Shown one piece after another: positions 13,455 through 31,866 of a DNA stretch of 64,000 nucleotides. Source of the stretch: Actinomycetes bacterium (GTDB lineage Bacteria; Actinomycetota; Thermoleophilia; RBG-16-64-13). Below the pieces are notes generated by a model. That model saw nothing but the letters and a program-made list of their open reading frames with translations, was not told the origin of the DNA and did not search any database. Location: the NCBI GenBank assembly GCA_024637035.1, contig JAGXFW010000014.1, forward strand, positions 1 to 64,000, in the 5' to 3' direction. Position numbers and translations under genes: made by a program. How positions within the stretch are numbered: the first letter of the stretch is position 1; each line of letters opens with the position of its first letter.

Positions 13455-13462
13455 GGGACACG

Positions 13463-13492: not shown

Positions 13493-13498
13493 ATCCCA

Positions 13499-14323
13499 CT
13501 ACCTCTTGGCAGCGTCCACAGCGGTCAGCTGCAAGAGACCTCGCGTTCCCACCAATCGGAGCCCGATGATCACGGCGATAACCGAGATGCCGATGAACAC
13601 CGAGGCGATGGCTGCCACCGCAGGGCTCACCTCATAGCGAAGCGATGTCCAGATGACCACGGGCAGGGTCACCGTGCGCGGAGCGGTGAGGAACAGCGAC
13701 ATCATGAACTCGTTGAACGAGATGACGAACGCGAAGAGCGCACCGGCGGCCACTCCCGGGAGGATGCTCGGAAGCGTCACCAGGAAGAACGTGCGCAACG
13801 GCCCCGCCCCAAGTACCCGGGCGGCTTCTTCCGCCGCTGTATCCGTGCCGGCATACACTGCTCGTATCGCGAGATAGGCGATGGGCGTGCCCCACAATGA
13901 ATGGGCGATCATGACGCCCGGGAACGTCCCGCTTAGCCCTATCCTACTCGCGAACATCAGGAGCCCCACGGCGAGGATGAGTCCGGGCATGAAGAAAGGC
14001 ACCATGACGCCGAAGTTCAGGCCGGTCGCCCGCCTACCCTGGGCTTTCGCCAGACCGAGTGCGGCCGGCGTGGCCAGAAGCAACGACAGCACACTGGATC
14101 CCGCGGCGATGATGAGGCTATGCTGGAAGGGTCCTGTCCAGCGAGAGGCGGTGAAGATCTCTTCATACCAACGGAGCGAGAAATCGAGGCTCGGTTTCGC
14201 CATATATGGTGACGAGCCGAACGACAGCCAGACCACGATGACGAGAGGCGACAGCAAGAAGATCACCGCGATGAGGCCCAGCACGCGGTATGAGAGAGAT
14301 GGTAGCGACCAACGCGGGTTCAC
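13499..14323 (-). CDS. ABC transporter permease, spermidine/putrescine PotC type
   Basis: A 274-residue inner-membrane permease with about six membrane segments. The transport domain has the coupling motif EEAARVLGAGPLRTFFLVTLP (residues near 165-185), typical of PotC/YdcV proteins. It is the last gene of a four-gene importer operon; its start overlaps the end of the PotB-type gene (ATGA-like, 14320-14323). It ends at TAG. Known family substrates are polyamines, but related systems carry betaines, so the ligand here is open. Confidence 0.9.
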   Translation of the reverse strand: MNPRWSLPSLSYRVLGLIAVIFLLSPLVIVVWLSFGSSPYMAKPSLDFSLRWYEEIFTASRWTGPFQHSLIIAAGSSVLSLLLATPAALGLAKAQGRRATGLNFGVMVPFFMPGLILAVGLLMFASRIGLSGTFPGVMIAHSLWGTPIAYLAIRAVYAGTDTAAEEAARVLGAGPLRTFFLVTLPSILPGVAAGALFAFVISFNEFMMSLFLTAPRTVTLPVVIWTSLRYEVSPAVAAIASVFIGISVIAVIIGLRLVGTRGLLQLTAVDAAKR

Positions 14324-15225
14324 GCGACGTTCCTTCTGGCCATGACTCGGGCCACGCTCTGCGCGACGACCAAGACCACCACGATGAGGCTGAACAGTGT
14401 GACGGCCAGCCCCGCGCCTCTCGGCCAGTTGAACGCGGTGAGGAACTGGCTCGAGATTTCCTGAGACACGAACTTACCCGCCGAACTGCCCAGCAGTTGA
14501 GGCGACGCGTACTCTCCCATGGCCCAGACGAAGATCACCGTGGCGGCGGAGGCGATGCCGGGCGCGGAGAGCGGCAGCGTCACGTGGAGGAAGGCTTTCA
14601 AGCGAGAGGCCCCCATGTCTCGTGCACTCTCGACCAGGCTACGGTCGATCCCGGCGAGCACCGCCGCCATGATCAGGATCGAATACGGGAGGGTGATCTG
14701 GACGATCCCGATCACGACACCGAACGTGTTGTACACGACCCGAAGAGGTTCGTCGATCAATCCCAAACTCATGAGACCGTCGTTGAGTGCGCCCCCAGGA
14801 CTGAGGATGATCAACCACCCGTAGATCAGCACCAGGATGTTCGTCCAGAGCGGCACGATGACAGCGAACAGCAGGATCACTTTCAGACGCGGCCCGCATC
14901 GGTTGATCCAGTAGGCCAACGGATAGGCGAGGGCCAAACCCAGCACCGTCACCAGAAGACTCACCCCCAGCGTGTAGCCGAAGATCCTCAGATAGAAGCC
15001 GTCGGTGAGAAGAGTCGTGTAGCTGTCGAGCGTCCACGTGCCCTCTCTGTACGCGCTGCCGGATTCGTGCACCGAGAGGCTGATCCGTCCCATGAACATG
15101 ATAGGTACGATGAAGAAGAGGGCAGTCAGAACTACGGCAGGCAGTGCGAGCCACACCCTGTCAAGTCGGGCCCAGGAGCCGCGTGACGCCCCGCCACGAG
15201 TCTCGGAAGCCGTACCGTCACCCAT
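14320..15225 (-). CDS. ABC transporter permease, spermidine/putrescine PotB type
   Basis: A 301-residue permease. A hydrophilic N-terminus of about 25 residues precedes the first membrane segment; the coupling motif is ESARDMGASRLKAFLHVTLP. It forms the heteromeric channel with the PotC-type protein. Its ATG overlaps the stop of the ATPase gene by one base (TGATG at 15225), indicating coupled translation. The order binding protein, ATPase, PotB, PotC on one transcript is typical of this family, although the binding protein is often last. Confidence 0.9.
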   Translation of the reverse strand: MGDGTASETRGGASRGSWARLDRVWLALPAVVLTALFFIVPIMFMGRISLSVHESGSAYREGTWTLDSYTTLLTDGFYLRIFGYTLGVSLLVTVLGLALAYPLAYWINRCGPRLKVILLFAVIVPLWTNILVLIYGWLIILSPGGALNDGLMSLGLIDEPLRVVYNTFGVVIGIVQITLPYSILIMAAVLAGIDRSLVESARDMGASRLKAFLHVTLPLSAPGIASAATVIFVWAMGEYASPQLLGSSAGKFVSQEISSQFLTAFNWPRGAGLAVTLFSLIVVVLVVAQSVARVMARRNVA

Positions 15226-16352
15226 CAGGCCCTCTCCACCACGATCACATCACGAGCGTCGAACGCGGCGAACACCCGGTCGCCTCGTTCGAACACCGCT
15301 TCGCGCCTCGGCAGGTCCACCAGCAGATCTCCGCCATCTGGCAGGTTTATCACGTACTCGTACGATTCACCCTTGTACGCCCACAGCTTGACCACGCCCT
15401 CGATCACGTTGTCTTTGGTGGGCCGGTCCGCGTGGAGCGTGATCGCCCGCGGCCGTATCATGACGGCGCACTGCTGGCCGACGTCGCCGGAGTGGATCCC
15501 CATCAGGTCGAGTCCACTCTCCGTTCGGACCGTGCACGTCTCGCCGCTGCCGGCCGCGACGGACCCATCGAGTCGGTTCGACTCCCCGATGAAGCCGGCA
15601 ACGAAGGCCGAGGCCGGCCGGTCGTAGACCTCGCTGGGTTCCGCGTCCTGCGCAATGAGGCCCTCGTCCATCACGATGATGCGATCGGACATGGTGAGAG
15701 CCTCCTCCTGATCGTGTGTCACGAACAGCGAGGTGATCCCAAGGTCCACCTGTAGCTCTTTCAACTCAAGCTGCAATTGCTGACGCAGTCGCCTGTCGAG
15801 GTTGGTGAGTGCCTCGTCGAGCAGTAGTATCGCCGGCTCCACCACGATGGCTCGCGCCACAGCGACCCGCTGCCGCTGCCCCCCGGAGAGCTGCGAGGGC
15901 TTCCGCTTCTCGTAGCCCTCAAGCCGCACCCGTCGCATCGCCGTCGCCACACGGTCGTCTATCTCGGCCTTGCTCACGCCCCGCATCTTCAGGCCGAAGG
16001 CCACGTTGTCGTGCACGTTCATGTGCGGGAAGAGCGCGTAGCTCTGGAAGACCATGGCGGTGTTCCGCTTCTCGGGCGGCAGGTGAGTCACGTCGCTGCC
16101 TCGGATGAAGATACGACCGGCCGTGACCTCCTCGAGTCCAGCCACCATCCGCAGTGTCGTGGTCTTGCCACAGCCGCTCGGTCCGAGTATCGACACGAAC
16201 TCGCCCGAAGCGACCGAGAAGTCGATGGAATCCACGGCCACGACCGGGCCGAAGTGCTTACTCAGACCCTGCACCTCGAGGTCGGGGGTAGTGGCGCCCC
16301 CACCGGGGGGCGCCACGCTGTCCTTCATCGGTTGGACCGAGACGTCTGTCAC
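15225..16352 (-). CDS. ABC transporter ATP-binding protein, PotA type
   Basis: A 375-residue ATPase. Walker A is GPSGCGKTT, the signature LSGGQRQR and Walker B ILLLDEAL. A C-terminal TOBE-like domain spans about residues 265-370, the arrangement of PotA/FbpC. The start is a GTG at 16352 within a GTGA overlap with the binding-protein gene, preceded by AAGGAG; the longer in-frame start would overlap the upstream gene further without a ribosome site. A Pro/Gly-rich linker of about 20 residues precedes the ATPase domain. Walker B reads DEAL rather than the usual DEPL, a mild departure. Confidence 0.9.
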   Translation of the reverse strand: MTDVSVQPMKDSVAPPGGGATTPDLEVQGLSKHFGPVVAVDSIDFSVASGEFVSILGPSGCGKTTTLRMVAGLEEVTAGRIFIRGSDVTHLPPEKRNTAMVFQSYALFPHMNVHDNVAFGLKMRGVSKAEIDDRVATAMRRVRLEGYEKRKPSQLSGGQRQRVAVARAIVVEPAILLLDEALTNLDRRLRQQLQLELKELQVDLGITSLFVTHDQEEALTMSDRIIVMDEGLIAQDAEPSEVYDRPASAFVAGFIGESNRLDGSVAAGSGETCTVRTESGLDLMGIHSGDVGQQCAVMIRPRAITLHADRPTKDNVIEGVVKLWAYKGESYEYVINLPDGGDLLVDLPRREAVFERGDRVFAAFDARDVIVVERA

Positions 16353-17524
16353 TGTCCGAGGATCTCCTTCTTCCAACGGCTGTCCCAACTGTCCCAATCC
16401 TGGTAGAAGATGTCCCAGTCGTAGTCATGGAACGCTTCCCAGTCCTCGTTGGACACCGGAGGATGATCGTAGGGTACTCCGTCAGGCAGGGTCACCTTGC
16501 TGTTGGCGATGCCCATCCACTGCCGCGCGCACCACTCTTCCTGGCGGTCGGGCGACGTGATGAAGTTGATGAACGCTTCGCCCAGATCCTGGTGCTTGGT
16601 GCCGCGCACGACGAAGAAGTAGTCGATGTATCCGACCTGACCGTCGGTCGGGATGACCGTGGTGAGGTTGAGGCGCTCGCCCACGTCGCCCATCGCCGAC
16701 TGCGTGGCGTAGTAGTAGCCGGCCGTGAGGTCACCCCGCTCGAGAAGGCCGAAGAACTCTCCACCCGATTCGTACCACTTCAGCATGCTCGGAGCAAGCT
16801 CTTTGGTCTTGGCGAACACCTGGTCGGTGAGAGCAGGGTCGGTGAGAGCTTCGCGCGGGTCCAGACCGAGGGCGTAGATGGCCGGATAGATGCTGTAGTA
16901 GAAGCCTTTGTCGAACGATATCTTGCCCTTGAGCTCGGGCTTGTCCCAGAAGTCGGCCCATTTGGTCAAGTCGGTGCCTGCAGCCGTCACGATGCCGGCA
17001 TACGCGCCGTCGAACGGCACACCGAAGCCATCAGCGGCCGGCTTCTGCGCCAAGAGGGCCGGGAAGGTGTCGGCCATGTTGGGGATGTTCTCCGGGCGGA
17101 TCGGCAGGAAGAGGTTGTCCTCGATGACCGCGTAGTACACCGAGCCATCGCCGATGGTCACGTCGAACGGCGGATCGTCGGCCGGAGCTGCTTTGATCTT
17201 GCTCGGGATCTCGGTCCATACTCCCTGCACCTCGACCTCGGCTCCAGTGATCTCCATGAACGGCTTGGCGAACACCTCGATGAACATCTCGGTATAGGGG
17301 CCGCTCCACGCTGTGGCGATCAGTTTCTCGCCCTTGTACTTGTCGCGGATGTCGGCGTACGGATCCGCTACGGTGGTCTCGGTGGTGACCGGTGCAGCCA
17401 TGGTCTCGGTTGTGGCAGGCGGTGCCGTGGTGGTGGTCGTGTCGCCGCAGCCTGCGAGAGACAGGAGCAGCGTGACGACGATGACGACAGCGAGCACTAG
17501 GCTCACTTTCCTACGAGCAGACAT
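16349..17524 (-). CDS. ABC transporter substrate-binding lipoprotein, spermidine/putrescine PotD type
   Basis: A 391-residue exported lipoprotein. The N-terminal signal ends in a lipobox LAGC at about residue 26, followed by a Thr-rich linker as in the other binding proteins of this window. The mature region resembles PotD/AfuA-type proteins: TAWSGPYTEMF near the start and an ATQSAMGDVGERL block. The C-terminus is rich in Trp, Asp and Tyr, often seen in binding proteins for quaternary ammonium ligands, but I cannot identify the aromatic cage. It leads the operon with the ATPase and two permeases. The ligand could be a polyamine, choline or a betaine. Confidence 0.87.
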   Translation of the reverse strand: MSARRKVSLVLAVVIVVTLLLSLAGCGDTTTTTAPPATTETMAAPVTTETTVADPYADIRDKYKGEKLIATAWSGPYTEMFIEVFAKPFMEITGAEVEVQGVWTEIPSKIKAAPADDPPFDVTIGDGSVYYAVIEDNLFLPIRPENIPNMADTFPALLAQKPAADGFGVPFDGAYAGIVTAAGTDLTKWADFWDKPELKGKISFDKGFYYSIYPAIYALGLDPREALTDPALTDQVFAKTKELAPSMLKWYESGGEFFGLLERGDLTAGYYYATQSAMGDVGERLNLTTVIPTDGQVGYIDYFFVVRGTKHQDLGEAFINFITSPDRQEEWCARQWMGIANSKVTLPDGVPYDHPPVSNEDWEAFHDYDWDIFYQDWDSWDSRWKKEILGQ

Positions 17525-17665: not shown

Positions 17666-18544
17666 TCACTCCGACCACGTGCGGACCGCGTTGGCGACGA
17701 TCTCGATATAGCGGGCGAATGCTTCCTCGGTCGCCCAGGCAAGATGATCGGTGATGACCAGATGGCCTGAGTCACGGAGACGCACCACATCGGGGCGATC
17801 GAGCCACCCAGGGTCGGTCTCCCATGGGCCGACGTCGAGTGCCGCACGCGCGACGTGCCCGTCCTCGATCACCTCGAGCAAAGCATCGTGGTCTACGAGA
17901 GAGGCCCGAGCGGTGTTCACGACAAACGACCCGGACGGCAGCGAGCGAAGCTCCTCGAGACCCAACACTCGCCCTGCCTCACCGGGGAGATGCAGGCTGA
18001 TCACCGAAGACTTCGCAAGGACCTTAGTCAGGCCCAGCTGCTCGAAGCCTTCAACGGGTCGCTGGTCGTACACCAACACCCGGCACCCCAGGCCGCGAAG
18101 CCCCTCGGCGACGCCCTGGCCTATCCGACCCCCACCCAACACCCCCACGGTGCGACCGGCGATCTCTGCGCCGAGGCTGTCGGTGAGACCCTCCGCAATC
18201 TGACGCCCTCGGGCCAAGTGGAAGATGAGGGTCAGCGCGAACTCGGCAACGGCCACCGTGCAGTAGCCGGCGACCGTATCAACGGCTATCCCTCGGGTCT
18301 CGCACTCGGCTAGATCCACGTGGTCGAGGCCGGTGGTGCGCGTCAACAGCGCACGAAGACCGGGGAGCTGATCGAGTTCGGCCGGTCCCACGGAAGAACC
18401 CAGCTCCACGATCGCAAGCGTGCAGTCGGTGTGACGGTGAGCCGCCTCGGCCAGCGTCCCGCTCTCAAGCCGCATGCGGGCCCGCACGTCGGCGGGCAGC
18501 GCGTCGATCTCTGCAGGTGCCGCCTCGAACATGACGATACTCAA
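17666..18544 (-). CDS. D-2-hydroxyacid dehydrogenase family protein (copy 2)
   Basis: A 292-residue paralogue of the protein at 8518-9396 with the same length and layout. The Rossmann motif is GVLGGGRIGQGVA. NTARASLVD supplies the putative catalytic Arg, DVGPWETDPGWL the Glu and ITDHLAWATEEAF the His. The start codon is TTG at 18544, preceded by AAGGGGG; the alignment with copy 1 supports this unusual start. It follows a thiamine-diphosphate enzyme gene and precedes a polyamine/betaine-type importer. The recurrence of the pair transporter plus this dehydrogenase suggests a shared catabolic role, but the substrate is unknown. Confidence 0.85.
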   Translation of the reverse strand: MSIVMFEAAPAEIDALPADVRARMRLESGTLAEAAHRHTDCTLAIVELGSSVGPAELDQLPGLRALLTRTTGLDHVDLAECETRGIAVDTVAGYCTVAVAEFALTLIFHLARGRQIAEGLTDSLGAEIAGRTVGVLGGGRIGQGVAEGLRGLGCRVLVYDQRPVEGFEQLGLTKVLAKSSVISLHLPGEAGRVLGLEELRSLPSGSFVVNTARASLVDHDALLEVIEDGHVARAALDVGPWETDPGWLDRPDVVRLRDSGHLVITDHLAWATEEAFARYIEIVANAVRTWSE

Positions 18545-18598: not shown

Positions 18599-20299
18599 CT
18601 ACTCATAGTCGAGGACCGCACGGTCGACGGGGATGTCGATGAGATACGGCCCGGGCCACGCGGCACGGGCGAGTTCTTCGATCTCACGAGGGCCGTCGGC
18701 GCGGCTGGCCTTCACACCGTATGCCATGCCCAGGGCCACCAGATCGACTTCAGGGTCTTCGATATCGAGCCCGACCGCCGCGGCATCATCTCCGCGGCGC
18801 GAACGCTCGACCCACTTCAGGATGCCGTAGCCGTCGTTCCGGAGTACCGCGAACACCACGGACAGACCGAGGTGCGCCGCAGTCCAGAGCGCCGGCGCCG
18901 CGTACTGCAAGGTGCCGTCGCCGAGGATGGCGAGCACAGGCCGTGACGGGCGGGCGCGAGCGACACCAAGGGCGAAGGCTACTCCCCAACCAAGCCCTCC
19001 TCCCTTGCAGGAGTAGTACTCCGCCACGCCGGTGCGTTCAAGGATCTCCCGCGCATAGCCCTCACCCGTCACCGAGTCGTCCACGACCGCGGCGTCGGCG
19101 GGCAGCGCGGCCAACAGGGCGGCGAGGGCGTCGGGGATCGTGGGTCGCCGCCCCTCCGCGTCGGCGATGACCGCGGCACCCGAGGGTGCCCCTGCCACGA
19201 CGGTTGCCTGCGTCTCCTCGGCCGGGAGGACGCCGATCTGCACCGCGGCCTCAGCGCCGGAGGTCCTCTTCATCGGTCGATCGACCCCGAGGGCGTCCAA
19301 TAGTCCGGAGATGAAGGCCGCCGGGGAGGCCGGCACCTGCACCGTGCGGCACGGGAAGGGACGGAACGCGCGTGGATCGGCGACGACGAGCGTCTGCTCA
19401 GGCGAGAGCGCCGAGACATCTTCGTGGAGCCAGCGCGTGAAGGGCCTCGCCCCGATCACGAGCACCACATCGTGATCCGCGAGCGCGGCCCTCACTCCGG
19501 AAGGCGAGAGAGGAAGGTACCCACGCCACGCCGGATCCGTGAACGGCAGCACCATACGGGCCGCCGCCGGCTCCGCGTACAGCGGTGCGTCGATGGCCGC
19601 GCACAAAGCGGACAACATGTCTTCCGCCCCATCCATGCCCGCTTGGTCGCCGGCGACGACGGCCGGAGAGGCCGCTTGTCGAACCAGGTCGAGCACGTGA
19701 GCGATAGTCTCCGCATCCGCCGGCACGTCCAGCATGACTTCGGCGGGCGGAGTGACCATCACCGGCCCCGCGCCGAACACATCCATGGGCACAGCGAGGA
19801 AGGTGGGCCCAGTGGGGAAGGTGCGAGCGAGATCCCACAATCGAGCGAACTCGGCGGGCACATCCTCGGGGCGCGCCACCTGCACCGCCGACTTGCAGTA
19901 TTGATCGGCCAGCGCCACGAGATCGGCCGACAGGATCGGGTCTTGTGAGAGGTGGCGCGAATCCTGCTGTCCGGCGACCACCACTAGCGGCGTCCCGCCG
20001 CGCTGGGCATTCCCGAGTGCGCACAAGGCGTTGGAAAGACCGGGGCCCGCGTGAACGGTCACCACGGCCGGGGTCCGAGTCACGGCGGCATAGCCATCTG
20101 CCATTCCAACGGCGGCGGGTTCCGTGAGACCCAGGATGAACTCAGGGGACCCGCGATCGGCCAAGGCCTCGATGAGGGCGATCTCGGACGACCCAGGGTT
20201 CCCAAAGATCACGCTTGCGCCACGAGCCTCCATGCTCACCAGAAGAGCCTCGGCCGCCGAAGCACATGACACCGAGTCCGATCTAGTGTGAACAGCCAC
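18599..20299 (-). CDS. Thiamine-diphosphate-dependent decarboxylase/lyase, benzoylformate-decarboxylase-like
   Basis: A 566-residue enzyme of the acetolactate synthase/benzoylformate decarboxylase superfamily. The N-terminal Pyr domain contains the cofactor-activating Glu in LGLTEPAAVGMADGYA (about residue 60) and a His in VTVHAGPGLSNAL. VAGQQDSRHLSQ resembles benzoylformate decarboxylase. The C-terminal PP domain has the Mg/ThDP motif GDGTLQY with the following Asn in LRNDGYGIL. The GTG at 20299 follows GAGGGGGG. It probably decarboxylates a 2-oxoacid or makes a related C-C cleavage; the hydroxyacid dehydrogenase downstream could supply the oxoacid. It ends at TAG. Oxalyl-CoA decarboxylase and 2-hydroxyacyl-CoA lyase are relatives that cannot be excluded. 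Confidence 0.82.
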   Translation of the reverse strand: MAVHTRSDSVSCASAAEALLVSMEARGASVIFGNPGSSEIALIEALADRGSPEFILGLTEPAAVGMADGYAAVTRTPAVVTVHAGPGLSNALCALGNAQRGGTPLVVVAGQQDSRHLSQDPILSADLVALADQYCKSAVQVARPEDVPAEFARLWDLARTFPTGPTFLAVPMDVFGAGPVMVTPPAEVMLDVPADAETIAHVLDLVRQAASPAVVAGDQAGMDGAEDMLSALCAAIDAPLYAEPAAARMVLPFTDPAWRGYLPLSPSGVRAALADHDVVLVIGARPFTRWLHEDVSALSPEQTLVVADPRAFRPFPCRTVQVPASPAAFISGLLDALGVDRPMKRTSGAEAAVQIGVLPAEETQATVVAGAPSGAAVIADAEGRRPTIPDALAALLAALPADAAVVDDSVTGEGYAREILERTGVAEYYSCKGGGLGWGVAFALGVARARPSRPVLAILGDGTLQYAAPALWTAAHLGLSVVFAVLRNDGYGILKWVERSRRGDDAAAVGLDIEDPEVDLVALGMAYGVKASRADGPREIEELARAAWPGPYLIDIPVDRAVLDYE

Positions 20300-20542: not shown

Positions 20543-21526
20543 TCACCGCACGCGCACCCCGGTGACCGGCTCGAGGCTGTGATCCCACAGGGCAGCAGTC
20601 GATCCGCCGACCCTCATGGAAAGTTCCGACCCCGCGACCACCTCGCCCACGCGTGCACCCGCCAAGCCCACAGCAGCCGCCCGCGACACCACATCCTCCA
20701 CGTCGGAGGGGCGCACGACGAGGAGGAAACCGCACCCGGGATAGGCTCCAAGCCAATCGAGCGCCCCCACTCCCTCAGGGCGCGGGAAGGCAGCCACGTC
20801 GACCAGCGCCCCCACCCCGGAACTCTCGAGCATCATCAGCGCGGTTCCGAGTAGGCCGGGATTGCTGACGTCTTTGCCCGCCACCACCAAGCCCGCCTCA
20901 GCGAGTTCGGGCAGTAGGGCGAGGCGCGCGCACACCTGTTCGGAGGGGCGCCACGATGTGGAATCCCAATTCGGGAATGGATCGTGCCACGCACCCTCCA
21001 CATCGACGACCAGCACCATCGAGTGACCGGGCAACGCACTGCAGCTCGGGATGAGGCGCGCCGCTGCGCCCAGTATCGCCACCGACAACGCCTTCCCCGG
21101 GCCATCCGGGTGCAGATGACCTCCGACCATAGGGATAGCGAAGTGCTTGGATCCGAACGCCAGCCCCCGGGCGACTTCTTCACGCCACAAGGAGTCCCCG
21201 CCGCCGAGGACGTTCACCATGGCCAGGGGGCGGCCCCCCATGGCGGCGATATCGTTGGCGTTGACAAGAACCCCGCAGTACCCGGCCCAGAACGGGTCTT
21301 CGAGCAGTTCCGTCGCAAGCCCATCAGCCGCCAGCAGCAGGTGGGTGTCTCCGAACGGGATAGGAGCCGCGTCCTCACCGAAGGCGACAGGCCACCCGTC
21401 GGGCACGAAGCCGGCGGACAGAGTCTCGACGACTGCCCCGATCGGCTGTTTCCGAGCGAGTGCGATCGAGTCGCTCAGAAGTCTGCGCACCTCCTCCGCG
21501 GAGGGCGGATCGCCCGTTGGTCTCAT
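20543..21526 (-). CDS. AIR-synthase-related protein (NitF/sll0787-like)
   Basis: A 327-residue protein of the PurM/ThiL/SelD superfamily, whose members use ATP to make acyl-phosphate or imidate intermediates. The N-terminal ATP-binding half has FGEDAAPIPFGD, the metal-binding segment VNANDIAAMGGRPLAMVNVL and GGHLHPDG; the C-terminal half has a GKDVSNPGLLGT motif. Together with the GNAT and the radical SAM gene upstream it matches the order of the Nit1C (MSMEG_0567/0568, sll0787) cluster as I recall it, which is linked to nitrilase and cyanide use. The nitrilase gene is not in this window. The ATG at 21526 lies in an ATGA overlap with a micro-ORF created by a tandem duplication. Confidence 0.75.
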   Translation of the reverse strand: MRPTGDPPSAEEVRRLLSDSIALARKQPIGAVVETLSAGFVPDGWPVAFGEDAAPIPFGDTHLLLAADGLATELLEDPFWAGYCGVLVNANDIAAMGGRPLAMVNVLGGGDSLWREEVARGLAFGSKHFAIPMVGGHLHPDGPGKALSVAILGAAARLIPSCSALPGHSMVLVVDVEGAWHDPFPNWDSTSWRPSEQVCARLALLPELAEAGLVVAGKDVSNPGLLGTALMMLESSGVGALVDVAAFPRPEGVGALDWLGAYPGCGFLLVVRPSDVEDVVSRAAAVGLAGARVGEVVAGSELSMRVGGSTAALWDHSLEPVTGVRVR

Positions 21527-21582
21527 GACGCCCTCGCCCCCTGCTCGCGCGAACTCATGACGCCCTCGCCCCCCGCTCGCGC
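21522..21582. repeat. 32-bp-period tandem duplication at the GNAT/AIR gene junction
   Basis: Two 29-base copies (21522-21550 and 21554-21582) differ at one base and are offset by 32 bases. Each contains the end of the GNAT gene and an ATGA. The first ATGA (ATG at 21558) opens an 11-codon frame that ends at 21523 with the same residues as the GNAT C-terminus (GARAS) and overlaps the true start of the AIR-synthase-like gene by ATGA. The duplication thus inserted a micro-ORF into a formerly direct coupling. Confidence 0.85.
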
Positions 21583-22022
21583 AATCTCACGTCGGGAGCT
21601 TTCATCAGCACGTGCGGCACCCCGGCGACGCCCTCCGTGGTCACAACGGTGACCCAGCCGAGCCGGTGGAAGAACCGCTCGTTGCGCACCTGCACCACGG
21701 CCAGGAACACCTGCGCTCCGCGCAGCGCCGCCTCACGCACGGCGTGTCTCACCAGCTCGAACCCGGCGGCCCCGCGATTGTCCGAACGCACCGCGAGCCG
21801 TCCGCCCACCCAGACGCCGGCGTCTCGTTCGTAGAGGCGCACGGTGCCAACGACCACCCCGTCGCACACGGCCACCAGGTGGACTGCCGAATGATCGTGC
21901 TCGTCCTGGTCGCAGTCGGCGAAGAGCTGCTGTTCGCCGCAAAAGACCTCACGCCTGATCGCGAAGGCTGCCTCCAGCTCCTCATGCCTGGCGGTGCGGA
22001 CCTCGAGGGCCACGGCGCTCAC
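21555..22022 (-). CDS. GNAT-family N-acetyltransferase (NitE/MSMEG_0567-like)
   Basis: A 155-residue GNAT protein. The conserved acetyl-CoA-binding core reads GGRLAVRSDNRGAAGFELVRHAV (middle of the protein; the R-x2-G-x-[GA] pyrophosphate loop is R-G-A-A-G here). FFHRLGW is the typical beta4-alpha4 ending. The FAIRREVFCGEQQLF block near the N-terminus is characteristic of the branch found in Nit1C clusters, from memory. The GTG start at 22022 forms a GTGA overlap with the radical SAM gene; the upstream in-frame extension lies inside that gene. Its acyl acceptor is unknown. Confidence 0.78.
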   Translation of the reverse strand: MSAVALEVRTARHEELEAAFAIRREVFCGEQQLFADCDQDEHDHSAVHLVAVCDGVVVGTVRLYERDAGVWVGGRLAVRSDNRGAAGFELVRHAVREAALRGAQVFLAVVQVRNERFFHRLGWVTVVTTEGVAGVPHVLMKAPDVRLRERGARAS

Positions 22023-23227
22023 ACCCCCGCGCCGTCGACAGCGACCGCAACAGGACGCACAGCCCCGAACTCCCCACAGACACCGCCGTCCGTGATCACC
22101 AACGGCTGGGACTCCCACTCAGGCAGAGCGGAACAGGCGGTACAGCGGCCGCAACCCGCCTTGATCCGCGACTGCGACAGGCCCGCAGCCCTCAATGCTC
22201 CGGCCGCCGCGGCGTATGCCTGCCTCATCAGATCCGCCGACGGGGTGGGATGGTGCTCCAAGAGCGATCCCGGCACCGGGCGGAAGGGCACGACGTGCGG
22301 GAACACACCCAACTCGGCCACCCTGCGCAAGCGACGCGCGGTGAGGCCGGGGTGCTCACCCAGTCCCATGATCACGTACGTGCTGACCTGACCGCGCCCG
22401 AACACCGCTACCGCCTGACGCCACGACTCCACATAGCCCCTCCATCCGATCTCGGCCTTGGTCGGCGCCACCCAGGCCAAAGTCCGCGGGTCCAGGCTCT
22501 CGATGTGCAGGCCGACGGTATCCACGCCCGCGGATCGCAATACCTCGAACGCAGCGGGATCACGCGGCGGCCTGAGCTGCACTCCCACCGGGAGATCGAC
22601 CGACTCCTTGAGAGCCCGCGTGCACGACGCTAGATGGGCCAGTTCCTCGCCCCCGTCCTCGGTGCAGCCGGTGGTCAGCACCACGTGAGACGCGAGCCCC
22701 CGAGCAGCGGCCACAGAGGCCACCTCGACCAGTTGCTCGGCGCTCTTGCGCGCGACGGTGCGACCGTCGCGCAAGCTCGCGCCGATCGCGCAGAAGCGAC
22801 AGGCACGAGCGGTACTCCAGAACACGCACGTCTGGATCACCGTGGACGCCAGACAATCGCCGCCGTGTATCAGCGCGACGTGCCCATAGCTGACGCCGTC
22901 ACTGGTGACCATATCCGCGAAAGGATCAGCGGGCAGGACGTCGACCGAAAACGGGCCGCGACCATGCCCATGCAGGACGGTTCCACCGGCGCCGACCACA
23001 AGGCGATACGCGGCCTGGGCCCCTCGGACCACGGGCACCGAGACCACCCTTCCGTCCACCAAGAGCGTGAGCCCCTGAGCCGGTCCGGCTCCTCCTCTGC
23101 GTATGGCAGGCGGAGCGGCGCCCGCGGGGTCGCCGGACCCGAGTTCGAGGCCCTGTTGCCCAGATTCGACGAAGACCCCACTGCTCTGCAGTTCCTCTTT
23201 CAGCAGGCGCCACTCAGCCGCGAACAT
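22019..23227 (-). CDS. Radical SAM protein (NitD/MSMEG_0568-like) with unusual CX8CX2C motif
   Basis: A 402-residue radical SAM enzyme. The likely cluster-binding cysteines are in TCVFWSTARACRFCAIG, a CX8CX2C arrangement rather than CX3CX2C. The barrel includes TTGCTEDGG and VGVQLRPP, and GLHIESLD further on. A second cysteine set near the C-terminus (AGCGRCTACS) could hold an auxiliary cluster. The layout resembles the MSMEG_0568 family of Nit1C clusters. It is coupled to the amidotransferase-like gene upstream (TGATG at 23227) and to the GNAT gene downstream (GTGA). The reaction is unknown; oxidative modification of a nitrogenous small molecule for the nearby acetyl- and ATP-dependent enzymes is a guess. 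Confidence 0.8.
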   Translation of the reverse strand: MFAAEWRLLKEELQSSGVFVESGQQGLELGSGDPAGAAPPAIRRGGAGPAQGLTLLVDGRVVSVPVVRGAQAAYRLVVGAGGTVLHGHGRGPFSVDVLPADPFADMVTSDGVSYGHVALIHGGDCLASTVIQTCVFWSTARACRFCAIGASLRDGRTVARKSAEQLVEVASVAAARGLASHVVLTTGCTEDGGEELAHLASCTRALKESVDLPVGVQLRPPRDPAAFEVLRSAGVDTVGLHIESLDPRTLAWVAPTKAEIGWRGYVESWRQAVAVFGRGQVSTYVIMGLGEHPGLTARRLRRVAELGVFPHVVPFRPVPGSLLEHHPTPSADLMRQAYAAAAGALRAAGLSQSRIKAGCGRCTACSALPEWESQPLVITDGGVCGEFGAVRPVAVAVDGAGV

Positions 23228-24462
23228 CAGCCCGCCTCCCGAAGAGAGCGGCCGCGAGAAAGATCAGCCTGCACGCCCCTGAAGTAACCGTTCAAGAACA
23301 GTGCTGCCATGCTGCTCAATTCTGGGAAGAGCACCGATGCGACGTCCCGCCCCTCGATGGGATCCGCGAGGCAGCCCTTGAGCCGGCGAAGCAGGGCACC
23401 CACGCATGCGGCGGATTCCTCGAGCCGCGTCACCTCCCCGGGTCGATAGAGCCCCACGATGTCGCTCCCCCGCGCGCCATGGGGCAGGCGTCGCCACACG
23501 GCATCGAGGAACTCAGGGATCTTCCCCGGATCGTAGTACTTGTGGCCGAGCAGCCAGATTGCAGATGACGATTCGAGCGAGAAGGCCACGATCCTCGCTT
23601 CACCCACCAGAGCCCGGAAGGCACCGTCGAGCAGATGCGGGGCCGGCTCCACCGCCGACTCCCGTGTGCCCGAACCTCGAGGCGACTCCCGCTCGATGAG
23701 GCGGCCCAGCATCGCGTTCGCTCGGGGGAAACCAGGATGCTCGAGGTGGGGTGCGAAGGCGCACAGCGTGCCCGAGCCCCTCCTCCTGGTGAAGCCCGCG
23801 GAGCCGCCGACGAGCATGCGGGAAGCCAAGGTCTCGTCTACCAAGAACAAGGTGTCCGGGCAGAAGGAATCGAAGCGGGCCAACTCGACCTCGTTCGACG
23901 AGAGGACCATCGGAGGGCCGCCGTACAGGGGAGCGTCGACGAGCTCCTCCGAGCCGCCAAGGTCCGTATCGCACACCGCGAAGCGCACGCGCTCCCTCAC
24001 CGGGTGCAACGCGTACCGGCCACCGTAGGCCGTGGCGGCCTTCTGTGGCAGCGCGCGGATCGGCGGCAGGTGATGGACGATGTTGTCGGCAGTGACATCC
24101 GTGAACGTGAAGGGCTCAAGGGGTTCGTACTCTATGCGCATGATCAGGTACGCTCCGGCACAGAACCCTACGTACAGTCCGCCCTCGTCGACGAACTGCC
24201 CGATGGCCGCAGCGCCCTCCGCTCCCATGCCGAGCGCCATGGCGACCGGATCGCCGCCACCCACGGCGAACGCGTCCACGGAGTCGAGGGCCCCGGTCCT
24301 CACCGCCGATTCGTCGAACACGGCCACACGCGAGAACCCCAGCCGTTCCAAGCAGTCGACCAACCACGTCCACGAGTGCGACGCCCCCGCACCGCCGTAC
24401 ACCCCCACGCCGAGGTCGGCGAGTCGTACTTCAGCGGTGCGCCGCTCAGTACGACGAGCCAC
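23227..24462 (-). CDS. Class I glutamine-amidotransferase-like protein (BPL_N-type)
   Basis: A 411-residue protein whose first half resembles the biotin-protein-ligase N-terminal (BPL_N) amidotransferase-like fold. It begins with LGVGVYGGAGASHSW, continues with a DAFAVGGGDP loop, and has the nucleophile-elbow-like GLYVGFCAGAYLIM, with Cys in the position of the GATase nucleophile. The second half (about residues 250-411) is not one I recognise; it contains GHKYYDPGKIPEFLDAVW and an all-helical C-terminus. The GTG start at 24462 follows GAGGGG. It is tightly coupled to the radical SAM gene. It could supply ammonia or hydrolyse an amide, but a glutaminase partner is not obvious. Confidence 0.65.
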   Translation of the reverse strand: MARRTERRTAEVRLADLGVGVYGGAGASHSWTWLVDCLERLGFSRVAVFDESAVRTGALDSVDAFAVGGGDPVAMALGMGAEGAAAIGQFVDEGGLYVGFCAGAYLIMRIEYEPLEPFTFTDVTADNIVHHLPPIRALPQKAATAYGGRYALHPVRERVRFAVCDTDLGGSEELVDAPLYGGPPMVLSSNEVELARFDSFCPDTLFLVDETLASRMLVGGSAGFTRRRGSGTLCAFAPHLEHPGFPRANAMLGRLIERESPRGSGTRESAVEPAPHLLDGAFRALVGEARIVAFSLESSSAIWLLGHKYYDPGKIPEFLDAVWRRLPHGARGSDIVGLYRPGEVTRLEESAACVGALLRRLKGCLADPIEGRDVASVLFPELSSMAALFLNGYFRGVQADLSRGRSLREAG

Positions 24463-24465: not shown

Positions 24466-25824
24466 TCACCCCTCGACCGGCGCTTCCGAGGGCGCCGCCG
24501 AGGGCGCCGCAGAGGGCGCCTCGACTTCGGTCGGCACCTCAACGGCGCCTTCGCCATCGGCCTGCGCCGCAGCCGCGACATCCACGCTCGTGCCGCCTAT
24601 CGCCGCGGACACCAGTTCCGTGAGATCCATCATCCGCAGGGCGGAACCCGCACCTGTCATGCCCACCTGCAGCCCTTGGTAGCAGAAGGGACACGTCGAG
24701 ACGAGAGCCTCGGCGCCGGTAGCCTCCGCTTCCTTGATGCGGGCGTGCGAGATACTGCCCTGAAGGCCGGGGTACGCGGCCTTGACGCCGCCCCCCGCGC
24801 CGCAACACCGGCTGTTCTCCTTGATGCGCTCCATCTCCCTGAACTCGAGGCCCGGGATCTGACCGAGCACCTTCCGCGGGGCCTCGAACACCCCGGCGTG
24901 CCGTCCGAAGTGACACGGGTCGTGATAGGTCACCACCAGCGGCACCTCGGTGTCGAGCGTGAGGGCGCCCTCCTCCAAGAGCCGCAGCAGGTACTGCGAC
25001 ACGTGGAGCACTTCGAAATCGAGCTCGCCCACCTTCGGGTAGTCCCGGCCGATGGTCTTGAAGCACCCGGAGCATGAGGTGACGAGCGTCTTGATGCCCA
25101 GCCCGTTGAACTGCTCGATGTTCTCCTTCGCCCGCTCTTCGAAGCGGTCGAGCATCCCCACCCGACGCATGGTGCTGCCGCAACAGCGTTCAGCCTGACC
25201 GAGGATGGAGAAGTCGATGCCCGCCTTCTGGAGCACCTTCGTGGTGTTGATCGCGACCTGCTTGAGGTTCATGTCGAACGACGCGGTGCACCCCACGAAC
25301 AGAAGCACTTCCGACGTGCCCGGGGCAGCCGTCGCCACCTTCGCGATCTCGGCGTTCTTGCCCTTGGCGGCGCGGACAGCCCACCTATCGCGCGAACTGC
25401 GGGGTTGCTGCCAGGGGTTGTCGTACTCGGCGATGTTCCGGTAGAGGGCCTCGTGCGGAGGCAACGGCCCTTCCCCGGCGGCGGCGAACACCGCACGCAC
25501 GCTCTCCCACAGGTCCATGGTGTCGATACCTGTGGGGCACACGAAGTGGCACTGGCCGCAGGTGGTGCACTGATAGAGGTCTTCCTTGAGTCGGGCGAAC
25601 TCGTCGTCGGACAGCGGAGGTCCGGAGACCAAGCGCGAGAGAAGACCGCCTTCGCCGCCGCGAAGCCGACGCAACGACCGCGACCTGCCTCTGGGCGTCA
25701 CCTCCTCGCGCTGCTCGATCTCGTAGACGGGGCACCAGTTCGTGCACTCGCCGCAGCGCACGCACGCGTCGAGTTCCAGACCCTGCTTCCAGCTCAGGAT
25801 CGACCAATCCATGTCGCGGGTCAT
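24466..25824 (-). CDS. HdrD-like iron-sulfur protein (heterodisulfide-reductase type)
   Basis: A 452-residue cytoplasmic iron-sulfur protein. Two 4Fe-4S motifs lie in the N-terminal part (CVRCGECTNWCPVYE near residue 18, CTTCGQCHFVCPTG near 85). Two CCG domains follow: VGCTASFDM with CCGSTMRRVG and TSCSGCF, then HDPCHFGRHAG with CCGAGGGVK and CPFCYQ. This is the architecture of HdrD, GlpC and DsrK. The last 25 residues are an acidic Ala/Pro/Ser/Glu tail. It is coupled by ATGA to a membrane cytochrome b gene, giving an HdrDE-like pair that would exchange electrons between a cytoplasmic thiol/disulfide or other donor and the quinone pool. The real heterodisulfide substrate is unknown; CoM/CoB need not apply. 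Confidence 0.85.
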   Translation of the reverse strand: MTRDMDWSILSWKQGLELDACVRCGECTNWCPVYEIEQREEVTPRGRSRSLRRLRGGEGGLLSRLVSGPPLSDDEFARLKEDLYQCTTCGQCHFVCPTGIDTMDLWESVRAVFAAAGEGPLPPHEALYRNIAEYDNPWQQPRSSRDRWAVRAAKGKNAEIAKVATAAPGTSEVLLFVGCTASFDMNLKQVAINTTKVLQKAGIDFSILGQAERCCGSTMRRVGMLDRFEERAKENIEQFNGLGIKTLVTSCSGCFKTIGRDYPKVGELDFEVLHVSQYLLRLLEEGALTLDTEVPLVVTYHDPCHFGRHAGVFEAPRKVLGQIPGLEFREMERIKENSRCCGAGGGVKAAYPGLQGSISHARIKEAEATGAEALVSTCPFCYQGLQVGMTGAGSALRMMDLTELVSAAIGGTSVDVAAAAQADGEGAVEVPTEVEAPSAAPSAAPSEAPVEG

Positions 25825-26573
25825 ATCGCCTCGCTTCTCTCGCGTGCCGTCGCCGCCGCGAGCGACATCTCGATCGGCGCGGTGAGCATGTGCACCATCT
25901 TGCTGTACGGGATGTACGCAAGGAACGCCAACGACGCCAGGCCATGCACATAGAAGAGGGTCATCGGGCTCTCCACCCCGGGGAGGTCGGCCACCCACGT
26001 GAACGCCGCGCCCGCGAATGCCCATTCGGCTGCCGGCTGCGCGCCTCCGGCAAGCCTGACGCCCTCCGCGGCAAAGCCCGTGAGTGAGACGCCGAGTAGG
26101 AACCATAGAGCGACTGCGTCATCAGCCAGGGTCTCGAGCTGGGCCGTGCGCACCACGTACCGCCTGATCAAGGCGACCACGATCCCGGCGAGCAGCACCA
26201 GCCCCCACACGTCGCCCCACACGTTGAGCAGCGCGTGACCGTCAGACCCCTCGAAGAAGACGGCGACCGAACTTCCCGCGGGTACGAACCAGTCGAGCAC
26301 CATCAGCAACAGACTCTCCACGAAGAGCAGAACGAACCCCCAGAAGATGGCCATGTGCATGGCCCAACGTACGAGACTCTGGCGCCGGATCGTGCTTTGG
26401 AACAGCACCCGCGAGACGACGGCGCGAGCCAGAGCGCCCCGGTCGAGAGCGGAATGCCACGAGGGAGCCTTCCCCTGTCGCCAGATCATCACGCGGGCGG
26501 CCACGCCCACTGCCATGACGATGAGGGCCACCGTGGCCAGAGTGTAGAAGAGGATCGAATGCGTGTAACCCAC
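25821..26573 (-). CDS. HdrE/NarI-like membrane cytochrome b subunit
   Basis: A 250-residue integral membrane protein with five predicted segments (starting near residues 6, 72, 122, 165 and 210). Histidines in WHSALDRGA and in RWAMHMAIFWGF are candidate heme ligands, as in NarI/HdrE. The GTG at 26573 follows AGGAGG. It overlaps the HdrD-like gene by ATGA and is therefore its probable membrane anchor, linking it to menaquinone. The assignment is at family level; DsrM and GlcF-associated anchors look similar. Confidence 0.78.
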   Translation of the reverse strand: MGYTHSILFYTLATVALIVMAVGVAARVMIWRQGKAPSWHSALDRGALARAVVSRVLFQSTIRRQSLVRWAMHMAIFWGFVLLFVESLLLMVLDWFVPAGSSVAVFFEGSDGHALLNVWGDVWGLVLLAGIVVALIRRYVVRTAQLETLADDAVALWFLLGVSLTGFAAEGVRLAGGAQPAAEWAFAGAAFTWVADLPGVESPMTLFYVHGLASLAFLAYIPYSKMVHMLTAPIEMSLAAATARERSEAI

Positions 26574-26582: not shown

Positions 26583-27848
26583 TCAGACCACACGCGGGGA
26601 CAACACCCCGGTCACAGCCGCTGTCACATCGGAAAACCCCTCGGCATCCAGAGTCATCCCTGTCCCCAGCCGGACGGCTTCCAGCAGATCCTCCAGGCCG
26701 GGCGAGTCGCTCGCAGCCAGGAACGCGGGGCAGACCCCGAGCACGTAGCCGGCGCGCGTCCGCTCATCGGGACCGCCGGGCGTGACCTCCTGGGCGATCG
26801 TCGCCGCAGGGTCTGCGTCCACAGCGGCGAGGCCGTCGGCGGCCGTGGTCGTGCCGGCGGCAACTGCCCGAGCGGCGGCGGTCATCGGGTGCAACCCGCG
26901 CCGAGCGACGCCCTCGAACAGGCGTCCGGCTTCCTCGGGTGAGAACCCGCCCCGGAACAGGGCGAGTACAGCCTCCGCGTCCGTGAGCAAACACCCGGGC
27001 TCCGCCACGTCGGTCGAAGCCATCTCCTGGGCCGGTTCGTTGTATTTGACATAGGTGAAGCACCGGCAGGGGCACGAGAAGCACCCCTTGCTTCTATGAA
27101 CGGCCGGCGCGAGCCACTCCTCGCAGGCGGCCGCGTCGGGGGCTCCGCCCAACAGTCCCTGGATCACGTTCGCGGGTAGCCCGGCGGATGTCACGGCCTC
27201 GCCCATGGCCAGCGAATGTTCGAACAGGTCTTCCGCCTCTTCGGCATCGAGGATCCCCAAGCCCCGCATGGCCACGGCTTTGACGTTCTTCGCGCCGAGA
27301 GCGGCGCCGAACCCGTGCGCGTCGGCGGTGCCCCAGTAGTTGGCCACCAGCTGCGCCGCGGGCGCTCCGTGCTCGCCCGCCGGACCCACGGCCAACACTT
27401 GGATAACCTCGTCGCCCTTGGCTGTCTTGATAGCGTCGCTCGTCTGCCAAGTATCGAGTCCCCACAACTGCGAGGCGTCCTCGAGAGCCGCGATGCCGTC
27501 GTGGAGCCAGAGGTACACCGGTGAGGGCGATTCCCCCACGATCACCACGGCGTCGAAGCCCGAGTACTTCAACTCGCTCCCCATGAACAGGGTGAGCGGG
27601 CTGTGCAGCGGGACCCCGTCCTCGCCGAGTCGGCTGATCACGCCCAAGGAAGCCCCCGGGGTCAGTGTGCCGGTGAGCGGCCCGGTGGCCAGCACGACGG
27701 GGTCACGGTCGGCGTAATCGGCGAGAAGGCGTTCGGCAAGGGCAACGCCGCCGATGACCTCTTCCACCAGATCGTCGGCGAAGGATCCTGCGTTCGTCGT
27801 GCCCGCCGTGAGGTCTACCATGAGTATGTGTTCCGCATAGAGATACAT
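26583..27848 (-). CDS. Shortened aldehyde:ferredoxin oxidoreductase (tungsten, AOR family)
   Basis: A 421-residue AOR-family protein; standard AORs are about 600-650. The N-terminal domain follows AOR (VDLTAGTTNAG, ATGPLTGTLTPG, GSELKYSGFDAVVI, FGAALGAKNVKAVAMRG). The 4Fe-4S ligands C256-x2-C259-x3-C263 are present with an extra C261, and the distal ligand is probably C373 in YVLGVCPAF. About 180 residues of domains 2 and 3 are missing between and after these. The ATG at 27848 lies one base after the ferredoxin gene. The pair with the ferredoxin and HdrDE-like genes implies aldehyde or carboxylate redox chemistry linked to the membrane. Whether the shortened protein still holds a tungstopterin is uncertain. 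Confidence 0.78.
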   Translation of the reverse strand: MYLYAEHILMVDLTAGTTNAGSFADDLVEEVIGGVALAERLLADYADRDPVVLATGPLTGTLTPGASLGVISRLGEDGVPLHSPLTLFMGSELKYSGFDAVVIVGESPSPVYLWLHDGIAALEDASQLWGLDTWQTSDAIKTAKGDEVIQVLAVGPAGEHGAPAAQLVANYWGTADAHGFGAALGAKNVKAVAMRGLGILDAEEAEDLFEHSLAMGEAVTSAGLPANVIQGLLGGAPDAAACEEWLAPAVHRSKGCFSCPCRCFTYVKYNEPAQEMASTDVAEPGCLLTDAEAVLALFRGGFSPEEAGRLFEGVARRGLHPMTAAARAVAAGTTTAADGLAAVDADPAATIAQEVTPGGPDERTRAGYVLGVCPAFLAASDSPGLEDLLEAVRLGTGMTLDAEGFSDVTAAVTGVLSPRVV

Positions 27849-27849: not shown

Positions 27850-28197
27850 TCAGGCCTCCTCTGCCACACGGATCGCCCCAGCCATGCACGCCCGCGCGCA
27901 TGGAGCGGGATCGCACCCATCGCACGGGGGCCGCAAGAGGATGGGCTTGCCACCTGGTGAACTGTCCTCCACCGGTTCGCCCTGTCTGCGCACCTGAACC
28001 CCATCGGGTCGCGCCGCCACGAGATCGTCTTCGGTCTTGTACAGCAGACCGAAGTAGTTGTTCTTCTCCTCGGCACGGTAGAGCAGGATGCTCGACGACG
28101 TGACCGTGTAGCCCTCGTCGCGGTAGTGCCCGCAGGCTATCTCGCACCGACCGCACCCGTTGCAGAGGAGAGGGTCGATCTGCAGGTGAGTCGTCAT
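27850..28197 (-). CDS. Small 4Fe-4S ferredoxin-type electron carrier
   Basis: A 115-residue protein with cysteine groups CNGCGRCEIACG near the N-terminus and CDGCDPAPCARACMAGAI near the C-terminus, i.e. a HycB/AorA-like di-cluster ferredoxin with a 60-residue insert between the groups. The ATG at 28197 forms an ATGA overlap with the arginase-like gene. Directly upstream of the AOR-like gene, it should be its electron-transfer subunit. Confidence 0.85.
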   Translation of the reverse strand: MTTHLQIDPLLCNGCGRCEIACGHYRDEGYTVTSSSILLYRAEEKNNYFGLLYKTEDDLVAARPDGVQVRRQGEPVEDSSPGGKPILLRPPCDGCDPAPCARACMAGAIRVAEEA

Positions 28198-29465
28198 CGG
28201 GGAACCTCCCAATCGGAGTGAGCGGACGCAAATAGGGGGGACGGTGTGAGGGTGCGCAGGAGGCGCCGAAGGAGCCGGGCGGCAAGAAGGACGCCGGGAT
28301 CAACCGCGACCCCGCCCAATCGCTCCATGCTTCGCACGTCGAACTCCATGAGGTCGACGCCGACCAGACGCGCCTTCGATAGCACTCCGGCGGCCGTTTC
28401 CTCGATCAAGCGCTCGAGCGTCGCCGCGTCCAACCCGGTGCGGTCGCGGAACCGCACCGCCCGCGTGGCGACGTTCGCCCCCACGTCGAGGTCGATCGAG
28501 ACGTACACGTGGCCGGCCTTCGAGCCGGACAGCGCCCACGCAACCCTGGCGGGGTTGGTAGCGATCTCGTCTCGGGTGAGCACCGTGACGCCCCGCTTGC
28601 GCAGGGCGGAGTAGGCAGCCACATACTCCTGGATCCGGGAGTCGTCGATCTTGCGGGCCCGGCTGGGCGGAGTGTCTGCCACGCCCACCAGATAGAGGTT
28701 GCGAGGATCGACCGTGCCCTCGTCGATCAGGTGGTGAAGGAAGGTACTCGCGTTGTACGAGTCGGGCCGATCGCGAAGTAGCGGGTCGGCGGCATCGTAC
28801 CTCGACCCCGGGTTCGTCTCCGCGTCGTAGTGCACGGCGCCCGCTGTCGCCGTGGTCGGGATGGCGTCGGTGTGGGCGTCGAGCACGATCACGGCAAGGT
28901 CTTCCGCGCCGTGGCGCCGCGAGAGAGCGCGCAACACGCCTCCGGTGAGCGAGTGGTCCACCCCCACCATGACGGGCACGGCAGGCAGGACGGTGCTCTC
29001 GACGAACGCCTCGACCGCTTCGGCCAGACGGAGGCAGCCTCCGTCATCGACGAACCGGGCGAACGCCGTTTCCGCGATCGCCTCCCGGTGTTCCGGTCCC
29101 GGCGTAGGCGACAGCCAGGCCCATTCCCCTGGCGCTGCGGTCCGGTCGACCGCGATCGAAGCACCTCCGATGACAGGCCCAGGGCCTCTGGCGGCAGCAC
29201 CTCCGGCGGCAGGCGCTTGCCCATGGGAGGCTGCTGCTCCTTGGGCGGCCGCTACCCCTTCGGCGGCCCCGACTCCCGCAGCAGCCGCGAGAGCACCGAG
29301 CAGATCCACCGGGTCCCTGCCGGCATCGATCCAGGCATGCTTCGAACGTACGGCCGCGGTCCGCTCGTCGGGGTCGGCCATGGCACCGAACAACACGGCG
29401 ACAGGCGATTTCGCTCCCTGCCCGGAGCCGGTGCCGGGCGGCTTCTCAGCGAGAGAAGAAGTCAT
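28194..29465 (-). CDS. Arginase/agmatinase-fold (ureohydrolase) family protein
   Basis: A 423-residue protein with the binuclear-manganese motifs of the ureohydrolase family. GVDHSLTGG supplies the first His, VLDAHTDA the D-x-H-x-D group and VSIDLDVGAN the final D-x-D. The family consensus after the last motif is D-P, here V-G. The N-terminal 110 residues carry a Gly/Ala-rich segment absent from typical agmatinases (about 300 residues). It could hydrolyse a guanidino compound or an amide such as formylglutamate. Its place between a methyltransferase fusion and an AOR module is unusual and suggests a specialised substrate. The start was taken at the ATG at 29465, which overlaps the upstream gene by 20 bases. 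Confidence 0.75.
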   Translation of the reverse strand: MTSSLAEKPPGTGSGQGAKSPVAVLFGAMADPDERTAAVRSKHAWIDAGRDPVDLLGALAAAAGVGAAEGVAAAQGAAASHGQAPAAGGAAARGPGPVIGGASIAVDRTAAPGEWAWLSPTPGPEHREAIAETAFARFVDDGGCLRLAEAVEAFVESTVLPAVPVMVGVDHSLTGGVLRALSRRHGAEDLAVIVLDAHTDAIPTTATAGAVHYDAETNPGSRYDAADPLLRDRPDSYNASTFLHHLIDEGTVDPRNLYLVGVADTPPSRARKIDDSRIQEYVAAYSALRKRGVTVLTRDEIATNPARVAWALSGSKAGHVYVSIDLDVGANVATRAVRFRDRTGLDAATLERLIEETAAGVLSKARLVGVDLMEFDVRSMERLGGVAVDPGVLLAARLLRRLLRTLTPSPLFASAHSDWEVPR

Positions 29466-31815: not shown

Positions 31816-31866
31816 CGTCCCTCCAAGCGCCGGGGTCCCCCCGACGGTCACGGTCGGCTGCCTCCG

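Follow-up and report, generated by a model that had tools for sequence, protein, structure and literature searches.

A nitrilase-free relative of the Nit1C gene trio closes an operon with AOR-like and Hdr genes in an Actinomycetes bacterium

The window analyzed here is a stretch of 64,000 nucleotides from an Actinomycetes bacterium (Actinomycetota, Thermoleophilia; GenBank assembly GCA_024637035.1, contig JAGXFW010000014.1, positions 1 to 64,000 of the forward strand). Its minus strand encodes, at positions 20543-23227, a radical SAM protein, a GNAT acyltransferase and an AIR-synthase-like protein in the order of the Nit1C cluster, which is known for cyanide use. The cluster in the window is a nitrilase-free anaerobic relative, clearly related to Nit1C and not a strict member of it. 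The trio and the BPL_N-type gene upstream of it close a tight operon of 11 genes, which runs from a GlcD gene (33309) down to the AIR gene (20543) with intergenic gaps of -20 to +28 bases and also includes Hdr, MtaA, arginase-fold, ferredoxin, cytochrome b and compact aldehyde:ferredoxin oxidoreductase (AOR)-like genes. A sequence-only reading of the window had placed four genes, from the BPL_N-type to the AIR gene, on the minus strand at 20543-24462, and had described the Nit1C order, the missing nitrilase and the junction to Hdr and AOR genes; all of this was borne out. No description of a nitrilase-free anaerobic cluster was found in the literature searched. The variant is widespread in anaerobes, and its fixed anaerobic partners suggest that the trio functions in its own right.

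The three proteins were compared with the MSMEG_0568, MSMEG_0567 and sll0787 families by hidden Markov models (TIGR04043, TIGR04045 and TIGR04049, curated NCBIfam families each with its own cut-off) and did not fall into unrelated families. The radical SAM and GNAT proteins pass the curated cut-offs, and the AIR-like protein just misses that of TIGR04049, its best model (302.8 bits, 18.5 below the cut-off of 321.3). Its second-best model is TIGR03267, methanogenesis marker 2 (276.4 bits; the cut-off of 365 is not reached), so that profile scores place the protein between the sll0787 family and marker 2. The closest solved relatives by profile are PurL (best), ThiL and SelD. Identity with HypE was rejected, as the C-terminal cysteine of HypE is absent and HypE is not among the matches of the window protein, as was identity with SelD, for which the score is far under the cut-off. 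The radical SAM protein has the core motif Cx8Cx2C and a C-terminal CxxCxxC. The true start of the GNAT gene is probably near 22025.

Genes 3-5 of Nit1C (NitB-NitH, with a Nit6803/NitC-type nitrilase) likewise encode radical SAM, GNAT and AIR proteins in this order (PMC1199592). The reference clusters of Burkholderia anthina and Agrobacterium vitis (L071, L072) consist of MSMEG_0572, nitrilase, radical SAM, GNAT, AIR, glycosyltransferase, MSMEG_0570 and MSMEG_0569. There is no nitrilase gene within the window. The CN_hydrolase genes of the genome, four in number, lie outside this contig and do not resemble the Nit1C nitrilase (best score 39.1 bits against the nitrilase model cut-off of 502.6). 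MSMEG_0572/Sll0783 (ORF1) had no match in the genome, and the MSMEG_0569 flavin oxidoreductase and MSMEG_0570 of L071 had no blastp match in the gene set of the window at 1e-4. Strict Nit1C membership fails because the nitrilase and MSMEG_0572 are missing and the AIR-like protein stays below its cut-off. In the window's class, 299 genomes were sampled and 22 of them, counting that of the window, have a TIGR04043 protein. Some of the others carry MSMEG_0572, MSMEG_0570 and MSMEG_0569, with a weakly similar nitrilase-type protein in the two cases checked. Other clusters of the class (L049-L059, e.g. L055:7451-13527 and L056:7538-13497) encode MSMEG_0572, a protein of about 208 residues without a Pfam match, and an Amidohydro_2 protein at the nitrilase position; an AllG-like gene lies downstream of the cluster in L055. 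On comparison, the 208-residue protein was rejected as a counterpart of the flavodoxin-like protein of anaerobic clusters. Within the family of the window, no further sampled genome had a TIGR04043 protein. An intact Nit1C cluster in close relatives was rejected as the source, since canonical and amidohydrolase-type clusters occur in the class and none occurs in the sampled genomes of the family.

In the radical SAM tree, the Nit1C and amidohydrolase-type proteins form one clade (support 100/98), and the window protein lies outside it among anaerobic proteins, grouping with that of a Syntrophomonadaceae locus (L119; 99/92). A tree placing the window protein within the Nit1C clade was not rejected by the approximately unbiased test (p 0.156), and on these alignments its position outside is favored, not proved. 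The tree is unrooted and compatible with either gain or loss of the nitrilase. The core spacing is Cx9Cx2C in 10 of 10 Nit1C proteins compared; it is Cx8Cx2C in the window, in all 22 anaerobic proteins and in all 13 of the amidohydrolase type. Unlinked radical SAM relatives of Actinomycetota (L158-L166) form a clade (96/90) in which six of nine members have a shortened core, Cx6Cx2C.

The BPL_N-type protein is a class I glutaminase-fold protein by its modeled fold and its triad, and glutaminase activity is predicted. The predicted structure has a pLDDT (predicted local distance difference test) of 91.5. Residues 16-264 match PdxT (Z 21.8, root-mean-square deviation (rmsd) 2.2 over 183 residues), and the model also matches HisH (Z ~19) and PurQ (chain 3d54_D, Z 19.1). 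The triad C101, H239 and E241 is invariant across 28 related sequences. About 145 C-terminal residues form an extra part beyond the glutaminase fold. The alignment of this family, used to search the phylum and to scan globally, returned 34 loci, nearly all from anaerobe lineages: Desulfobacteraceae and other Deltaproteobacteria, Syntrophobacteria, Actinomycetota including Ca. Geothermincola, Syntrophomonadaceae, and Thermoplasmata. In nearly all loci of sufficient length the glutaminase gene lies directly 3' of a small ferredoxin gene and the AOR-like gene, with or without the trio. The earlier view that this protein leads the set holds as to its upstream position and amidotransferase-like nature; as a member of the trio module it was rejected, since it accompanies AOR and ferredoxin instead. 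The compact AOR-like protein and its dedicated glutaminase-fold partner are a previously undescribed pair, present in several anaerobic phyla.

The linkage seen in the window recurs in other anaerobes. L077/L176, L081/L177, L082, L087, L083, L092 and L167 share, whole or largely, one gene order: AOR, glutaminase, cytochrome b, HdrD, (SsuA/NMT1 ABC transporter), (flavodoxin-like), radical SAM, GNAT, AIR. A second run, with the trio coming last, is found in Desulfatitalea alkaliphila and its relatives (L172-L175); it consists of GlcD, GlcF-like Hdr, permease, MtaA, arginase-fold, aldehyde dehydrogenase, radical SAM, GNAT and AIR genes and lies on the contig that also carries the AOR/glutaminase set. 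The window operon unites both half-clusters. In two more genomes (G863, G792) the radical SAM and glutaminase genes lie 5-12 kb apart; counting these, at least 13 genomes other than the window's have both genes on one contig. By gene order, the operon linkage of the trio with the ferredoxin, the compact AOR-like protein, the glutaminase-fold protein and the HdrD/cytochrome b pair is shown to be recurrent across phyla.

The association also holds at the level of genomes. TIGR04043 proteins with E-values no higher than 1e-30 are encoded by 25 of 32 glutaminase-bearing genomes (over the curated cut-off in 18); AIR occurs in 26 of 28 and GNAT in 14 of 28. GNAT is the dispensable member of the trio. 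In one order of 194 genomes, the glutaminase occurs in 12 and a strong radical SAM match (≥ 298 bits) in 10, all of them within the 12; Fisher's p is 4e-15, or 1e-10 once five previously known positive genomes are taken out, values that are inflated by shared ancestry for a pattern that nevertheless crosses phyla. Two more radical SAM matches in this order (142 and 120 bits) are taken as another subfamily. A single local accident as the origin of the trio and AOR junction is rejected, given the recurrence in other loci and the co-occurrence in genomes.

It is tentatively proposed, with somewhat less than even confidence, that the trio completes a dedicated anaerobic operon in which, independently of nitrilase, it makes a nitrogen-containing product for the AOR-like/Hdr system. 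The independence from nitrilase is itself probable. The glutaminase-fold protein would release ammonia from glutamine, and the AIR-synthase-like enzyme would use ATP to activate a carbonyl group and take up the nitrogen, in the style of PurQ-PurL. The radical SAM enzyme, with its second cysteine cluster, would make a C-C, C-S or C-N change, and GNAT, where present, may acylate the product. This product may be a nitrogen-containing cofactor or activated intermediate that serves the AOR-like/Hdr system. The latter would oxidize an organic substrate, in the window operon probably a methylated one, and pass electrons by way of HdrD and cytochrome b to the quinone pool. A methylated substrate is suggested by genes for MtaA/CmuA-type, MttB, MtrH/MtgA-like, corrinoid and corrinoid-activator proteins in or near the loci. 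The Nit1C nitrilase would be a part added in one lineage and not the purpose of the trio. In its widest form, the proposal describes a biosynthetic module of radical SAM, AIR and triad glutaminase (GNAT optional) for an undescribed nitrogen-containing cofactor that would serve a compact tungsten-enzyme-like redox system in anaerobes from several phyla, with Nit1C as an offshoot that added the nitrilase; in that form it is judged unlikely. Several observations weigh against the proposed biosynthetic role. The glutaminase gene adjoins the AOR-like gene and not AIR in most loci, and therefore its ammonia may go elsewhere. The CxxCxxxC cluster motif of AOR is kept in the window and other Actinomycetota and lost in all Desulfobacterota members aligned, so the AOR-like protein, without its [4Fe-4S] cysteines, is maybe no redox enzyme there. 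In Actinomycetota except the window, the radical SAM gene is mostly unlinked, and GNAT is absent where it is. Also, one glutaminase genome (Thermoplasmata) has AIR without the radical SAM protein.

A catabolic role is a possible, if doubtful, explanation. The trio, glutaminase-like and arginase-fold proteins would then catalyze successive steps in the breakdown of a methylated nitrogen compound: the corrinoid and MtaA proteins would demethylate it, the arginase-fold protein would split off nitrogen, and GlcD/Hdr and aldehyde dehydrogenase would oxidize the remainder. It draws on the Desulfobacterales loci, where GlcD, GlcF-like Hdr, MtaA, arginase-fold, MMSDH-type aldehyde dehydrogenase and trio genes form a single run; on L177, where genes for a corrinoid protein, an MtrH/MtgA-like protein and an AcsV-like activator adjoin the trio; on the MttB and corrinoid genes at 9472-11581 in the window; and on the SsuA/NMT1 ABC transporter between Hdr and trio in several loci. 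The AOR/glutaminase set of Actinomycetota has quite different catabolic neighbors (methylmalonyl-CoA mutase, enoyl-CoA hydratase, HdrA) while radical SAM and AIR persist, and a shared service role fits this better. A role of the trio in maturation of the AOR-like enzyme, through modification of its pterin cofactor or of the protein, is improbable. The AOR-like/glutaminase pair does co-occur tightly with radical SAM and AIR even if unlinked, and the AOR-like protein is unusual, being compact and often without iron-sulfur cysteines; however, the trio is also present in Nit1C clusters without AOR, and canonical AORs are not known to need such genes. A true Nit1C function, cyanide or nitrile assimilation with another hydrolase in place of the nitrilase, agrees with the same trio in the same order and with the amidohydrolase at the nitrilase position of the related clusters in the class, and is very improbable in view of the genome without Nit1C nitrilase or MSMEG_0572, the different core spacing, and the finding of no nitrilase homologue near the 34 loci and no TIGR04048 nitrilase over the cut-off in any of the 32 glutaminase-bearing genomes.

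The sequence-only reading had suggested a variant pathway for a nitrogenous C1 compound. Variant is a fair term because several other anaerobes show this gene linkage too. A cyanide-like or C1 substrate found no support: a cyanide role is unlikely because the nitrilase is missing throughout, and the accompanying genes (corrinoid methyltransferase parts, MMSDH-type aldehyde dehydrogenase, 2-hydroxyacid oxidase, arginase-fold hydrolase, SsuA/NMT1-type transporter) point to catabolism of a larger, possibly methylated compound, or to a cofactor role. A 2005 paper stated that no chemistry was known for the radical SAM, GNAT and AIR proteins of Nit1C (PMC1199592), a 2024 paper credits the Nit1C nitrilase, and no demonstrated chemistry for the three was found in the literature searched. 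Desulfatitalea alkaliphila is a cultured organism in which the function of the trio can be pursued.

The features of the operon are listed in Table 1. The start of the HdrD-like gene was inferred inside the open reading frame 24466-26106. The compact AOR-like protein folds like AOR (Z 34.2 and rmsd 2.6 against 1aor, over 400 of its 605 residues) and is about 180 residues shorter than full-size AOR; AFOR_N is matched, and AFOR_C scored 15.7 against a cut-off of 27. Members of this family of about 420 residues are found in the window (26583-27848) and in L077, L079, L081, L090 and L092. The small ferredoxin-type gene constantly adjoins the AOR-like gene in the neighborhoods compared. The arginase-fold protein retains the metal-ligand motifs DHS, DAHTD and SIDLD. 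Arginases bear an acidic guanidinium-binding residue; in the alignment VRFRDRTGL stands at its place, and as this usual acidic residue is apparently replaced, the protein may not act on guanidine. An arginase-fold family with conserved VRFRxxxGL adjoins MtaA in the window (28194-29465), L172, L174 and L175. The two halves of the HdrD/GlcF-MtaA/CmuA fusion are separate genes in L175. A 505-residue multi-spanning membrane protein without Pfam or NCBIfam match is encoded between the GlcF-like Hdr and MtaA genes (L078:2327-3844, L175:7217-8734); it was rejected as a methyltransferase and is perhaps a substrate permease. GlcD and Hdr/MtaA of the window are 75-81% and 62-68% identical, respectively, to Desulfobacterota genes (L077-L079, L109, L175), with 30-50% for their neighbors, which suggests a recent horizontal transfer between Actinomycetota and Desulfobacterota. 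The thiamine diphosphate (ThDP) enzyme gene lies 243 bases downstream of the AIR gene and may or may not belong to the operon. A neighboring set at 9472-17524 encodes a non-pyrrolysine MttB-type methyltransferase, a corrinoid protein, a PucR regulator and a PotABCD-like ABC transporter; it is flanked by two D-2-hydroxyacid dehydrogenase genes (8518-9426 and 17666-18544) that are 54% identical.

Table 1. Features of the operon and the gene downstream of it, in the direction of transcription
Feature	Positions	Strand	Evidence
GlcD-like FAD 2-hydroxyacid oxidase, first gene of the operon	31867-33309	-	PF01565, PF02913
HdrD/GlcF-like and MtaA/CmuA-type methyltransferase fusion	29446-31851	-	TIGR01463 253.9 bits (cut-off 235.4), CCG domains
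Arginase-fold hydrolase	28194-29465	-	PF00491 73.3 bits
Small ferredoxin-type protein	27850-28212	-	Fer4_6
Compact AOR-like protein, ~420 residues, start inferred	26583-27848	-	PF02730 144.4 bits
Membrane cytochrome b (NarI/DsrM/QmoC-like)	25821-26573	-	PF02665 43.3 bits
HdrD-like iron-sulfur protein, two CCG domains	24466-25818	-	PF02754, Fer4_8; TfrB/LdhH/DsrK-like
BPL_N-type protein, class I glutaminase fold and extra C-terminal domain	23227-24462	-	PF09825 27.4 bits (cut-off 24.2)
Radical SAM protein, MSMEG_0568 type	22019-23227	-	TIGR04043 325.1 bits (cut-off 303.7)
GNAT acyltransferase, MSMEG_0567/Sll0786 type	21555-22118	-	TIGR04045 124.3 bits (cut-off 68.45)
AIR-synthase-like ATP enzyme (PurL/PurM/HypE/SelD/ThiL superfamily)	20543-21526	-	TIGR04049, TIGR03267, AIRS and AIRS_C domains
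ThDP enzyme, benzoylformate decarboxylase-like	18599-20299	-	NF005485 290 bits (under cut-off 493)

Compared with known systems, the window shares with Nit1C homologous radical SAM, GNAT and AIR proteins in identical order, two of the three passing curated cut-offs. It differs in that no nitrilase, MSMEG_0572, MSMEG_0570 or flavin oxidoreductase adjoins the trio, in the AIR score, in the cysteine spacing of the radical SAM protein, and in the junction of the trio to AOR, glutaminase and Hdr genes. With PurQ-PurL it shares the class I glutaminase fold, the Cys-His-Glu triad and an AIR-synthase-fold partner nearest to PurL; however, the sequence families are separate, the window glutaminase carries an extra C-terminal domain, and its pairing with the AIR protein is an inferred one. 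The AIR proteins of L082 and L087 score higher with the methanogenesis marker 2 model than with the Nit1C model, but below the curated 365 bits. The compact protein has the fold of the AOR family (AOR, BamB) at about 420 instead of 600 residues, and many of its relatives are without iron-sulfur cysteines. As in membrane modules of the HdrDE and DsrMK type, a CCG-domain iron-sulfur protein adjoins a NarI-type cytochrome b, although no curated cut-off is reached and the partner enzyme in the window is AOR-like.

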